DNA from: Thermodesulfobacteriota bacterium
Lineage (GTDB): Bacteria > Desulfobacterota_D > UBA1144 > Nemesobacterales > UBA2774
Direction: 5' to 3'
Length of the DNA: 64,000 nt
NCBI GenBank assembly: GCA_040754335.1
Contig: JBFMCV010000002.1
Span: forward strand, 372,001 to 436,000
A model generated the notes under the pieces. That model worked only from the letters and a program-made list of their open reading frames with translations. It did not search any database and was not told the DNA's origin. How positions within the stretch are numbered: position 1 is the stretch's first letter; each line of letters opens with the position of its first letter. Shown one piece after another: positions 50,480-55,382 of this stretch. The position numbers and the translations under genes are program-made.

Positions 50480-50921
<442 letters not shown>

Positions 50922-51682
50922 GTACGGGTCTCTAAACAGGTAATTCCGCAGCTTTATTGAGAACATATAAAGTAACCAAAGGGGGTGGTAGTGTCAACGA
51001 AAGGGGAGGGGGGGTGGCCTGATGTGTCATCGCGAGGGAGAGAATCGGCCGTGGCGATCTGTTATTACTATTGTTGAGAAGATATGGATTCCCGATTTGT
51101 TTTGGCTTGTGCTGCAAGATATTGGGAGAATGAAGTATATTTGCAATCAGCCCGGGGCGACCGATTGCAGATTTGTATTGATATGCATCTTGTCAAGTAT
51201 AATAACGCATTAGTAATAAGCCGGCGGCGACCAGTTTGTTTTGGCTTCAATAGAGCATCTCAACCTATAACCGTCCATGTATTCAGCCGGAAGAGACCGG
51301 ATTCTCACTCGCTCGAATCCATTGCTTGCTCGGAACTGTTGCATGCAATCGTTACTCGAGAATGACAGAAAGGAAAAAGACGAGATTGCCACGCTGCGCT
51401 CGCAAAGACAAACAAAAATAGGCCCTGAGACAAGCCCCCCATCACGAACGGGTTGGACTTCTCTGCCAGTTAGCCGCTGATGTCACATGAGAATCATCTA
51501 TAAGCACACATTGTGTGCAAAAAAGGGAGCGCCAGGGATCGAGTTCTTCGCAGAATCAATACCTGGCGCTCTAAGGGGGGGGTATGGGGTTATGTCGTTA
51601 TTAGTGCCGTATCGCCTGTTTCTCCAGTCAGGGTCTTACGGCCCTGATGTCGGCAGCCCGTAAAGAAGTCAAGCTGCCGACA
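50922..51682. repeat. Gene-free spacer with repeats and a 10-bp stem-loop
   Basis: About 760 bases. Contains two related patches (51050-51130 and 51160-51250) that look like a decayed direct duplication, a GACCGGATTCTCACTCGCTC repeat near 51296, a GAGATTGCCACGCTGCGCTC piece near 51380, the hairpin GCACACATTGTGTGC (51504-51518) and a perfect 10-bp stem GAGCGCCAGG/CCTGGCGCTC (51527-51536 with 51562-51571). No gene. Confidence 0.6.
51504..51518. repeat. 15-nt palindromic hairpin repeat, solo copy
   Basis: GCACACATTGTGTGC preceded by ATCATCTATAA, identical in the hairpin to 1878-1892. Confidence 0.65.
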
Positions 51683-52105
51683 TCAGGAGGCTTGCCTGAT
51701 CTCAAAAAAGGCCGATGTGCTCCCCGGTTCCGAAACCAGAACACCGTCCTGCTTGAGCCCTTCGAGGTGGAGGCGTACCGAGTCGAGCATGAGCTCCTTC
51801 GTCTCCTCAAGCGTATCTCCGACGGCGACGCAGCCGGGGAGGTCCGGACAGTAAGCCGAATAACAGTCGTTCGACTGCTCGATGGTGATCTCATAATGTT
51901 CCTTATGTATTACTTCCTGCGAATCGAAGCAGTGCTTGAGAGAGTAATAAAGCGCGCCTTCCGGGAGCTCCTTGTCCATCTTGCAGTTGATGGTGAGCCT
52001 CGACTTCTTGCTCCTGAGCTTGAACTGACGATGACTTCCGCAAATCCTCACGAGATACCATCCGTTGTTCTCCACCAGAAACTTTATCACCTCTCTCACT
52101 TTCAT
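51683..52105 (-). CDS. Fused HicA-HicB toxin-antitoxin protein
   Basis: 140 aa from ATG 52105. Residues 1-58 are HicA: MKVREVIKFLVENNGWYLVR, then GSHRQFKL with the catalytic His25 and LPEGALYYSLK. After a short linker residues 68-135 are HicB: YEITIEQSND, YSAYCPDLPGCVAVGDTLEE and LHLEGLKQDG. HicA mRNA interferase and HicB antitoxin are normally two overlapping genes; here they are one frame without stop. The HicB part has no DNA-binding tail, a job that the RHH protein encoded 42 bp upstream could take. An ATG nine bases upstream is the alternative start. Confidence 0.85.
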   Translation of the reverse strand: MKVREVIKFLVENNGWYLVRICGSHRQFKLRSKKSRLTINCKMDKELPEGALYYSLKHCFDSQEVIHKEHYEITIEQSNDCYSAYCPDLPGCVAVGDTLEETKELMLDSVRLHLEGLKQDGVLVSEPGSTSAFFEIRQAS

Positions 52106-52147
52106 GATCTCCATCCTCTCACAGGGTATTTTTTGAAGCGATTTCTG

Positions 52148-52366
52148 CTATCCGTCCTTCCTGTACATCAGCACGTTTTCGAACTCCTTGCCCGTCATGT
52201 GGTTGTCGAGGTACTCGGCGATTGCGTCCTCGATGATCCTGGACTGGCTTTTTCTGGAGACGAAGGAGAAGAGCCTCAGCTTCTCGTAAAGGAGAGCCGG
52301 GATGTAGAGGGAGCCTCTGTGCATCTTCTCTGGATTTGCCCGCTGCTGAATGGTTGCCGCCGTCAT
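52148..52366 (-). CDS. Ribbon-helix-helix (CopG-like) DNA-binding protein
   Basis: 72 aa. RGSLYIPALLYEKLRLFSFVSRKSQSRIIEDAIAEYL (residues 17-53) reads as beta-strand plus two helices of an RHH repressor; basic and without other domains. First gene of a two-gene unit with the HicA-HicB fusion. The predicted transcription start falls almost on the first ATG, so translation may be leaderless; an internal ATG at 52324 (AGAG upstream) is the alternative. It is the likely ligand of the palindrome at 52379-52398. Confidence 0.8.
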   Translation of the reverse strand: MTAATIQQRANPEKMHRGSLYIPALLYEKLRLFSFVSRKSQSRIIEDAIAEYLDNHMTGKEFENVLMYRKDG

Positions 52367-52372
52367 GGTCTC

Positions 52373-52401
52373 ATTATTACATCATTACGTAATGATGTCA
52401 A
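52373..52401 (-). promoter_or_regulatory. Promoter with 20-bp palindromic operator of the TA module
   Basis: Minus strand: TTGACA (52401-52396), 17-bp spacer, AATAAT (52378-52373). The spacer and edges are covered by the perfect palindrome ACATCATTACGTAATGATGT (52379-52398), a classic autorepression layout. Confidence 0.85.
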
Positions 52402-52792: not shown

Positions 52793-53263
52793 CTACAGCC
52801 ACCTTCGGACGCGGCTCTTGTATTCCGTATACTGCGCGCCGAACTTTTCTTCGAGGTACAGCTCCTCCCTCTCGATGACTCCCTTCCTCATGACCGTGAT
52901 GAACAGAGGTATAAGTATCATTATCCACAGGTTATTGAGGAGTATGGATATCGCGATGAGAAAAATTACGAGCGACACGTACATCGGGTTCCGCGTGAAG
53001 GAGTATATACCGCCCGTAACGATTGCTGTCACGGGCTTCCTCACGTCGACGTTCGTGCCCGCGCGCTTCATCATGAAGAACGCGGATGACGTTATGATTA
53101 CGGAGAGTACTAAGAGAGCTGCGCCTGTTATGTATCTCGCGTTCCCTTCGATGAACCGGAGCGGGTATATGAGGCCCGCGGCCGTGCCCGCAGCGATGAT
53201 TATGAGCACGATGAGCGGTGGCGGCGCGATCACGCGGGGGTGGTCGTCATAGGGGCTCGTCAT
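52793..53263 (-). CDS. Isoprenylcysteine carboxyl methyltransferase-like membrane protein
   Basis: 156 aa, four membrane helices. GGIYSFTRNPMYVSLVIFL and VIEREELYLEEKFGAQYTEYKSRVRRWL (the latter in its parts, residues 128-156) are the SAM- and substrate-binding end of the ICMT/PEMT family of integral methyltransferases. In bacteria the substrate is unknown. Overlaps the upstream metal-sensor-like gene by 17 nt; last gene of the sigma-factor operon. Confidence 0.88.
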   Translation of the reverse strand: MTSPYDDHPRVIAPPPLIVLIIIAAGTAAGLIYPLRFIEGNARYITGAALLVLSVIITSSAFFMMKRAGTNVDVRKPVTAIVTGGIYSFTRNPMYVSLVIFLIAISILLNNLWIMILIPLFITVMRKGVIEREELYLEEKFGAQYTEYKSRVRRWL

Positions 53264-53840
53264 GCGGCTCTCCTCCGGGCCCGTCGGGCGGCTCTTCCCA
53301 GTCAGGAGGGGGCGGAGGAGGAGGGGGTCCGTCGAACCTCTCCATATGGAATTTTTCGCCGTGGACGTCGTTCTTGCCTCCGTGGAACCCTTCCATGAAG
53401 AACCGCGGGAAAGGCGGTCCGGGTCCGCGCCTGATTATGTCGGCTATGGCCTTCCTCTCCTCCCGGGTCAGGTCGGACGCTATCTTCTTCGTCTCGTCGG
53501 CGATCTCGTCCGTGAGCTCGCCCATGAGCGCGTGGAGCTCGGTGACCTTCCTGTCGAAGAGCGCGGGGTCGAACTCGGGGGCGGAGAATACGTCAATGAC
53601 CTCGTCCCTTTTTTTCTTTATCTTCTTCCTCGTTTCGAGCGACTCTTTTCTCAGGTCTTTTATCGTTTCCATGACCTTCTCGCGTTTTTCGGGCGGAAGC
53701 TCCTTCATGAAATGGAACGCTCGCTTGCCTTTCTCCATGTGCCAGAAGAACGTATGCGAGAGAGTCCCTATGAGTATGCCGATAAGCAGCACGTTAAGTA
53801 ACACCGACAAAGCGAGGAATATTTTCAGCCCCTTACTCAT
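53247..53840 (-). CDS. Periplasmic heavy-metal sensor/resistance-like protein with Pro- and His-rich tail
   Basis: 197 aa. An N-terminal membrane helix (GLKIFLALSVLLNVLLIGILIG) is followed by a long helical region (LPPEKREKVMETIKDLRKE, FDRKVTELHALMGELTDEI) typical of the Metal_resist/ZraP-like fold, then a tail with His residues and a run of eight prolines. It should sense or buffer metals or misfolded proteins in the periplasm. Overlaps the ICMT gene (17 nt) and the anti-sigma gene (8 nt). Confidence 0.82.
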   Translation of the reverse strand: MSKGLKIFLALSVLLNVLLIGILIGTLSHTFFWHMEKGKRAFHFMKELPPEKREKVMETIKDLRKESLETRKKIKKKRDEVIDVFSAPEFDPALFDRKVTELHALMGELTDEIADETKKIASDLTREERKAIADIIRRGPGPPFPRFFMEGFHGGKNDVHGEKFHMERFDGPPPPPPPPDWEEPPDGPGGEPHDEPL

Positions 53841-54267
53841 AGTATTCCTCCCCGTAGTAGAGCATCTCGGAGTAAAGCGAATTGTCCGTATCCTGCTCCG
53901 CGTAGTTGGCGTAGAGGTAACCGGCCGCCATACCGATAATCAGAAGGAGCGGGAGCGCGATCGCGGGCCGGGGGAAGGGTATTGCGGAGAATATCGCGCC
54001 GAGGATTCCGAAGACGGAATTCCCCGCAGGTTCGGGCCTCTTTCTTTCGACTGCCGCGCTTATGATCCTCGCTTCGAGTCCGGGCGAGGGCTCTTCGAAC
54101 CCCCTATCCATGAGGGATTCCTCGAAGCGCCTCTCCTCTTCGAGCGCTTCTCTCAGCTCCGCGGAGCCTGCGCATGCCTTCCCGGCTTCTTCCCTGATTT
54201 CCCCGGGCCATCTGCCGATGTCCCCTCCGTATAATTCCAGATAACGCATGAATTCTTTCCTATCCAT
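53833..54267 (-). CDS. Anti-sigma-factor-like membrane protein
   Basis: 144 aa. The cytoplasmic N-terminal 85 residues (MRYLELYGGDIGRWPGEIREEA, then a helical linker) precede one membrane helix (PAIALPLLLIIGMAAGYLYA) and a short acidic periplasmic tail. Its place directly after the ECF sigma gene with an 8-nt overlap and the single-helix topology indicate a membrane anti-sigma factor, though no zinc-binding HxxxCxxC motif is present. Confidence 0.78.
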   Translation of the reverse strand: MDRKEFMRYLELYGGDIGRWPGEIREEAGKACAGSAELREALEEERRFEESLMDRGFEEPSPGLEARIISAAVERKRPEPAGNSVFGILGAIFSAIPFPRPAIALPLLLIIGMAAGYLYANYAEQDTDNSLYSEMLYYGEEYYE

Positions 54268-54871
54268 CCTTGTTCTCCTCCCTCCTGTTATCTCCTGCGA
54301 GCCTCTGCCTGAGAGACGCTTTCGCGCGCATGAGGAGCGACTCGAGCGCCTTCACGCTCACTCCCATTATCTCGGCAGCCTCCCTGTTGCTCACCCCCTC
54401 GTAGAAACAGAGCGCGAGGGCGGTCTGCTGCGATTCGGGAAGCTCGCCTATGCACGCGTCTATGTCGTCCTTTCTCCTTTTCATTTCGATCGCCTCTTCC
54501 GCCCCGCGCCCCTCGTCCGGAGGGTCGAACCCGTCTTCGAGCGGGAGCGGCTTCTGCTTCCTCTTACGGTCTATGCACGCGTTCGCCACTACTCTGTAGA
54601 ACCACGTCGTGAACTTCGTCTGCCTCTCGCCGTCCCATTTCCCCGGGTTCGTCCACAGCGTGAGGAACGCCTCCTGCACTGTGTCCTCGGCCTCTTCCCT
54701 GCTCGAAAGCATACTGTAGGCCAGGCTGTAGAACTTCTTCGTGTGACGCATTACGAGCATCGAGAACGCATCCCTGTCCCCGTTCCTTATCCGCCCCATG
54801 AGCTCTTCGTCTGTGAACCCCTCGGTCTCTATGGCCATTTTCCCGATCGGAAGAGTGACGGTCGTATCCAT
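54260..54871 (-). CDS. ECF RNA polymerase sigma factor
   Basis: 203 aa. Region 2 (DAFSMLVMRHTKKFYSLAYSML, EEAEDTVQEAFLTLW, FTTWFYRVVANACID) and region 4 (LPESQQTALALCFYEGVS, AAEIMGVSVKALESLLMRAK) are intact. First of a tightly overlapping four-gene set: sigma, anti-sigma, metal-sensor-like protein, ICMT. A Spy-like gene on the same strand 94 bp upstream is probably under the same control. ATG with AAGGGA four bases upstream. Confidence 0.92.
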   Translation of the reverse strand: MDTTVTLPIGKMAIETEGFTDEELMGRIRNGDRDAFSMLVMRHTKKFYSLAYSMLSSREEAEDTVQEAFLTLWTNPGKWDGERQTKFTTWFYRVVANACIDRKRKQKPLPLEDGFDPPDEGRGAEEAIEMKRRKDDIDACIGELPESQQTALALCFYEGVSNREAAEIMGVSVKALESLLMRAKASLRQRLAGDNRREENKDG

Positions 54872-54965
54872 CTGGTCCCTTAAAATATTAAAACCTGCGC
54901 GGGCGGAATAGTAAAGCTTCTACCCCGCCCGCCGGTCTGAGAGGATGATTATGTGCCTTGCGCCT

Positions 54966-55382
54966 TTATTTCTTCCAATGGTGGCGTCCGCCGGGGCCTA
55001 GCTCCGCAAGTATCTCCCTTTCGTCCTGCGTGAGCTGGGGGGCGAGCTCCGCTATCGCGTTCGAGAAAGACGTGAAGCCCTGGGCCATGAGCGTCTGGAG
55101 CTTCTCGGAGTTCTCCTTGAAAGCCTCCGCGTCGAACTCCTCGGCCGTGAGTATCTCTTTCAGCTTGTCGTGTGTCGCCTCTATCTCGTCCCTGAGCCCT
55201 TCGTTCTCTTCCTTTACCGCGCTGAGGGTGCTGATGATGAGCTGCTGCTTGTCTTGGGGGAGCTTCGAGAAGGCCTCGAGCCTTTCTATCCCGAAGGGTC
55301 CGCCGTGGGGCATGGCGATCGCTGCGGCCGCCCCCGTCATAAACAGCCCTAGTACTGCCGTAAGTACCAAATTCCTTTTCAT
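54966..55382 (-). CDS. Spy/CpxP-like periplasmic protein
   Basis: 138 aa. Signal peptide MKRNLVLTAVLGLFMTGAAAA, then a helical hairpin (KLPQDKQQLIISTLSAVKEE, ILTAEEFDAEAFKENSEKL) resembling Spy/CpxP/ZraP chaperones, ending in a His-containing GGRHHWKK. Likely protects periplasmic proteins under metal or envelope stress. AGGAGGT nine bases before the ATG. Between it and the sigma gene a GGGCGG...CCGCCC stem-loop may reduce readthrough. Confidence 0.82.
   Translation of the reverse strand: MKRNLVLTAVLGLFMTGAAAAIAMPHGGPFGIERLEAFSKLPQDKQQLIISTLSAVKEENEGLRDEIEATHDKLKEILTAEEFDAEAFKENSEKLQTLMAQGFTSFSNAIAELAPQLTQDEREILAELGPGGRHHWKK

Follow-up and report, generated by a model that had tools for sequence, protein, structure and literature searches.

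A HicA-HicB fusion gene preceded by an RHH gene and a conserved promoter palindrome at one chromosomal site in Dadabacteria

The window, by which we mean the whole 64-kb stretch of DNA that was analysed, carries on its minus strand a compact two-gene module composed of a gene for an RHH (CopG-like) protein and, behind it, a single gene in which a HicA and a HicB domain are joined head to tail. A sigma-70 promoter that contains a perfect palindrome stands in front of both. The features of the locus are listed here by their positions in the window, starting upstream of the module:

52396 to 52401, minus strand: -35 hexamer TTGACA, identical in 8 of 8 genomes
52379 to 52398, palindromic: perfect 20-bp palindrome ACATCATTACGTAATGATGT, the proposed RHH operator, spanning the 3' half of the -35 hexamer and the whole 17-nt spacer
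52373 to 52378, minus strand: -10 hexamer AATAAT (TATAAA in other genera) with TG before it, ending 6 nt 5' of the RHH start in 8 of 8 genomes
52148 to 52366, minus strand: RHH (CopG-like) gene, 72 amino acids, no Shine-Dalgarno sequence, proposed autorepressor
52114 to 52118, minus strand: Shine-Dalgarno sequence GAGGA of the fusion, 6-8 nt 5' of its ATG in 8 of 8 genomes
51683 to 52105, minus strand: hicA-hicB single gene, 140 amino acids from the conserved ATG at 52105
51926 to 52105, minus strand: HicA half (codons 1-60), in which Gly23 and the catalytic His25 are invariant
51896 to 51925, minus strand: linker, codons 61-70, the fastest-changing stretch
51686 to 51895, minus strand: HicB half, codons 71-140, with no DNA-binding domain
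50828 to 50921, minus strand: tRNA-Ser(GCT), downstream in a position shared by 8 of 8 genomes, given as context outside the module

An earlier sequence-only reading of this DNA had claimed that HicA and HicB share one uninterrupted frame, and this is what we found: the open reading frame at 51683-52114 on the minus strand encodes 143 amino acids with zero internal stops, and the same frame is present in all 8 genomes. Pfam assigns residues 7-56 to HicA_toxin (PF07927; 40.8 bits at a cut-off of 27) and residues 74-132 to HicB_lk_antitox (PF15919; 39.2 bits at a cut-off of 27), with both ranges referring to this 143-codon frame (52114-51683). The gene itself almost certainly starts at the ATG at 52105 and not at 52114, because the latter overlaps the Shine-Dalgarno sequence while GAGGA precedes the ATG at 52105 by 6-8 nt in every genome, and the protein would then comprise 140 amino acids. 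We ruled out a separate HicB arising from an internal start, as the stretch between codons 44 and 86 contains no ATG, GTG or TTG in any of the species, which suggests that HicB would not be produced alone. Around 11 residues remain past the HicB match, and no DNA-binding domain is detected there by Pfam. The earlier observation of a HicB without a DNA-binding tail therefore stands, but the arrangement is not odd per se, since HicB proteins of this kind are common in classes 1 and 2 of the HicA classification by Gerdes (2024; PMC10865869).

The AlphaFold2 model of the fusion (pLDDT 75, pTM 0.72; moderate confidence) predicts an alpha-beta-beta-beta-alpha and a beta-beta-beta-alpha domain and is similar to the HicA of 6g26 (TM 0.76 on the target) and, to a lesser degree, the HicB of 6g1c (TM 0.58), while the linker is modelled at low confidence (pLDDT 55-65). 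The protein therefore has both the dsRBD-like domain with a catalytic histidine that characterizes HicA (PF07927, His25) and the partial RNase H domain that characterizes HicB (PF15919 and the predicted fold match to 6g1c). Gly23 and His25 of the HicA half are unchanged in all 8 orthologues, and His25 aligns with position 24 of the Burkholderia pseudomallei HicA structures 4c26 and 6g26, a histidine mutated to alanine there. Gly22 and His24 of B. pseudomallei HicA are needed for toxicity, and the HicA histidine is buried under HicB in known HicAB complexes (PMC11594946). A cysteine replaces the serine beside the catalytic histidine in four species among the 8 fusion orthologues.

A hairpin (51643-51687, minus strand) starts at the stop codon of the fusion. 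Strong hairpins at or just past this stop are found in 7 of the 8 genomes, and in the remaining one, G042, the hairpin follows about 50 nt on; the structure is kept, but the sequences are unrelated between genera. Farther downstream, at about 51520-51600 on the minus strand, AACCCCATACCCCCC leads into a GC-rich hairpin with a T-run behind it, and the C-run of this non-coding region has been retained in G003 and G041 as well.

The presence of a separate RHH gene before the fusion, noted from the sequence earlier, holds throughout: this gene lies immediately upstream in 8 of 8 genomes, at a spacing of 30-45 bp. The copy in the window matches RHH_1 below the Pfam cut-off, and all 8 orthologues match RHH_3 and RHH_1 with a best E-value of 3e-5. 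An AlphaFold2 monomer of this protein places helices at residues 21-31 and 38-55, though at a low confidence (pLDDT 61) that makes it too weak for use. We also considered that the module might be a split class 4/11 HicB whose DNA-binding domain has moved out, an idea left unsupported by an RHH gene that lies upstream and matches only RHH_1 and RHH_3.

The promoter TTGACA-N17-AATAAT matches the consensus at 11 of 12 positions and has a TG ahead of its -10 hexamer. The palindrome that had been reported within it was recovered at 52379-52398 as the sole perfect 20-bp palindrome of the window, where 0.1 would be expected per 64 kb according to a Markov simulation. TTGACATCATTACGTAATGATG is identical in 8 of 8 genomes, as is the ATAA of the -10 region, and has remained unchanged although synonymous sites are near saturation; the DNA farther upstream of it has diverged among these genomes. 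The 16-bp core of the operator is present in exactly one copy in each of the 8 genomes with the module and occurs unchanged in 0 of the 50 remaining Dadabacteria genomes. With no second copy at up to 2 mismatches in the genome of the window, we dismissed an RHH regulon elsewhere on that genome. Operator-like 16-mers with one mismatch occur as single copies in two distant Dadabacteria that lack the module (L086 near G013:C58:1956 and L094 near G044:C4:6800) and may be chance matches.

Several features support the earlier proposal that the RHH message has no leader: the gap between the -10 hexamer and the start codon is 6 nt, and a Shine-Dalgarno sequence is absent before this start, both in 8 of 8 genomes, so the message is probably leaderless, and no sign emerged of a start well upstream of the operator, which would have counted against this proposal. 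The two genomes of the window's genus use ATG as the start codon, and the remaining six use GTG. In the window, the stretch from this codon back to the preceding stop is free of in-frame starts, and the conserved N-terminal arm of the protein (pN/pS 0.14) indicates that translation begins at or near the assigned codon. Given the clear Shine-Dalgarno peak that the genome otherwise displays, a leaderless RHH start would be unusual in this organism. A pair of -35 and -10 hexamers 5-8 nt before the start was seen for 0 of 329 long genes, with a background of 0-5 at other gaps, from which we conclude no more than that promoters of this kind are uncommon in this genome.

One could suppose that the RHH protein is an unrelated local regulator, that the palindrome concerns only its own gene and that the fusion is expressed from a promoter of its own; the 30-45 bp between the genes fit this view, and their joint operon is itself a prediction from sequence. 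Yet the promoter before rhh is the sole promoter-like match on this strand between 51300 and 52800, co-occurrence and gene order are strict in 8 of 8 genomes, and neither a second operator nor a lone RHH gene was found, which makes this explanation very unlikely.

Our survey covered 58 Dadabacteria genomes and detected the fusion in 8 species-level genomes from four genera of one family of these uncultured bacteria, at 71-100% identity and with no stop. The RHH gene is found in the same 8 of 58 genomes, neither gene occurs alone, and every fusion recovered in this survey (8/8) has an RHH gene upstream. The closest named record for the fusion is Candidatus Dadabacteria sp. RBC041 at 97% identity. 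All 8 copies occupy one chromosomal site beside tRNA-Ser, where a weakly haem-oxygenase-like gene, tRNA-Ser(GCT), the fusion, the RHH gene and a PEMT/ICMT-family methyltransferase gene are shared neighbours. In members of the family that apparently lack the module (G002 and G040), the flanking genes are also missing, cut by a contig end or represented by a distant homologue only, and an empty site with the flanks but without the module was not seen among the family genomes; the module may therefore be general in the family. No close relatives bearing the fusion or the RHH gene were found on plasmids, phages or viral contigs, and a mobile origin was rejected on these grounds. PADLOC returned no match. 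Within the window, an ECF sigma factor gene and, behind it, a gene for a possible anti-sigma factor without Pfam match lie at 53247-55382 (minus strand), with Metal_resist family genes on either side.

Both halves of the fusion are under strong purifying selection. Between G000, the genome of the window, and G003, the fusion differs by 33 synonymous and 3 nonsynonymous changes, of which 15 and 0, respectively, fall into the HicA half, suggesting that catalysis or RNA binding would still be selected. Comparison with G041 gives a dN/dS of 0.029, and overall values are about 0.02-0.03. These numbers, together with the uninterrupted frame shared by 8 species-level genomes of four genera, exclude the sequencing frameshift that could have undone the earlier reading and refute the more general view of a dead or artefactual module, joined by a frameshift, a stop loss or misassembly. 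Although a compact class 1 hicAB could easily become fused by stop loss and a decayed hicAB does exist elsewhere in the genome, we regard this view as extremely improbable.

The fusion is also more conserved than both neighbouring genes in the same genomes. Its identity to the copy in the window is 98% in G003, 90% in G041, 81% in G042 and about 71% in genus 2, while the two flanking proteins reach 72-73%, 62-72%, 54-63% and 53-68%, respectively, the value of 68% coming from a truncated copy. For the pair of G000 and G003, dS is 0.51 for the fusion and 0.40 for the RHH gene but 1.2-1.3 for the flanks; since the module has the lower dS in this pair only, these two genomes may have exchanged it through homologous recombination, or constraint may act on its codons. 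In the comparison with G041, dS is near saturation everywhere. Most toxin-antitoxin systems do not evolve so slowly or stay at one fixed locus, and this behavior would suit a domesticated RNA-binding or RNA-processing protein that serves as a resident regulator or as an RNase of defined transcripts, autoregulated through the RHH protein and no longer a toxin switch. The fixed site in four genera, the low dN/dS, the conservation beyond both neighbours and the lack of mobile-element relatives with fusion or RHH gene all favor this interpretation. Nevertheless, Gly23, His25 and the HicB half have all been kept and a latent toxin is compatible with slow evolution, so that we consider domestication unlikely, if a serious contender.

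How does this module relate to known HicAB systems? Gerdes (2024) distinguishes 14 HicA classes, and these already include fusions in the form of class 11 (HicA-HicB-DBD), class 12 (HicB-HicA) and class 13 (large HicB), while class 1 is a bicistronic arrangement of HicA followed by a small HicB without DBD (PMC10865869). With its HicA-to-HicB order and a HicB of around 70 amino acids that lacks a DNA-binding domain, our locus resembles class 1, but it is not bicistronic: a linker of about 10 residues joins the two domains in a single frame, and an RHH gene precedes this frame. It shares with class 11 the single chain with HicA first and an RHH protein that appears to serve the operon, though here this protein is encoded by a separate upstream gene and HicB has no C-terminal HTH or RHH domain. 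Class 12 is likewise a single chain of similar size without DNA-binding domain, but its domain order is reversed compared to that found here (HicA at 7-56, HicB at 74-132). A fused HicA and small HicB without DBD that is accompanied by a separate RHH gene is absent from the 14 classes as published, supplement aside. A full-text literature search for fused HicA or HicAB returned Gerdes (2024) alone. An earlier mention of such fusions is the HicA-HicB Pfam architecture (PMC4826407), and Slr1999 of Synechocystis PCC 6803 likewise has both a HicA and a HicB domain, reported without a fused homologue in any other organism (PMC4963859); no RHH partner is described for it. Fused HicAB is thus known, and what is new, measured against the main text of Gerdes (2024), is a fused class 1 form with an RHH gene in front.

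The nearest relatives that we found are of the class 1 kind (L008, L010 and L005), and outside the family every relative that we inspected was an operon of two genes, from Chloroflexi (L008) and Betaproteobacteria (L010) to annotated plasmid and phage matches. G002, from the same genus as the window, encodes a conventional hicAB of about 50% identity. Outside the window, the same genome contains a decayed conventional hicAB (L097 1501-1830; G000:C2:361831-362155), in which HicA is reduced to its last part (profile positions 27-58) with loss of the catalytic histidine and the HicB behind it is intact, as well as an unfused 80-aa HicA-like gene (L096 1474-1716; G000:C1:700004-700195). A HicB-like ORF in the same orientation lies about 340 bp upstream of this HicA-like gene.

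We propose, with a probability of about 0.55 and chiefly from sequence, that the locus encodes an RNase switch inhibited in cis and an RHH protein that represses their shared promoter, organized as a two-gene chromosomal operon of rhh followed by hicA-hicB as one gene. RHH dimers would bind the palindrome between the -35 and -10 hexamers, exclude RNA polymerase and repress their own operon, and the RHH protein would thereby supply the DNA-binding function that is missing from the HicB half. We infer this from the constant joint presence of RHH gene, fusion and operator (8 of 8, never alone) and from an operator that occurs once per genome and is unchanged. The operon would probably give rise to a leaderless rhh message, and the fusion has its own Shine-Dalgarno sequence. 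Separate regulator genes are also found in the omega-epsilon-zeta and PaaR-PaaA-ParE operons (PMC4803016), though these encode toxin and antitoxin as two proteins and their toxin families are unrelated. As in such tripartite systems, the regulator gene of our module is adjacent and always present (8/8). The two separate proteins of a type II HicAB are replaced by one frame in 8 of 8 genomes.

In the proposed switch, the HicB half would cover the catalytic face of HicA in cis, so that the protein would emerge in an inactive state, with its two halves in a constant 1:1 ratio. The retention of Gly23 and His25, the predicted presence of both folds and the precedents of CapRel-SJ46 and EzeT, whose antitoxin domains inhibit the toxin in cis (PMC10865869; PMC4826407), argue for this model, though the latter act by tRNA pyrophosphorylation and as a UDP-GlcNAc kinase and resemble our fusion in their way of working, not by family. 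The sequence-only reading had asked how a fused toxin could ever be freed, a question whose premise may be wrong given this analogy: instead of losing a separate labile antitoxin, the fusion would be activated by an alteration of its own, for instance when a ligand or a phage or stress protein binds the HicB half or when the linker is cleaved, as in CapRel or EzeT. Since no separate HicA or HicB product is predicted, the trigger would act on the fusion itself.

Cleavage is central to an alternative in which the fusion is a pro-protein whose linker (codons 61-70) is cut by a protease to yield ordinary HicA and HicB, resulting in conventional type II behavior. The linker is indeed the least conserved part (pN/pS of 0.30 compared to 0.10 and 0.19 elsewhere) and is modelled at low pLDDT, as expected if it is flexible. 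However, no conserved cleavage motif is apparent in the linkers of the 8 species compared, and the bicistronic relatives reach the same end without fusion, so we find proteolytic maturation distinctly unlikely. Weighing against the cis-inhibited switch itself are, besides its slow evolution, the window's RHH match below Pfam cut-offs, the pLDDT of 61 for the RHH model and 75 for the fusion model, and the cysteine-for-serine replacement in four species. A bolder extension, which we view as quite doubtful, would see the toxin-antitoxin as converted into a resident one-chain switch and couple an autoinhibited HicAB RNase that senses its trigger in cis to a leaderless repressor message, with repressor and RNase differing in their response to the state of the ribosome.

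Gerdes (2024) raises two open questions, the regulation of operons whose HicB has no DBD and the switching of fused HicABs (PMC10865869). To the first, the locus offers a testable answer, namely a proposed repressor encoded by its own RHH gene, whose putative operator is the same in all four genera. For the second, it would provide a small and intact system. Residing at one site in 8 of 8 genomes and more conserved than its neighbours, the module departs from the usual mobile and fast-changing toxin-antitoxin systems.
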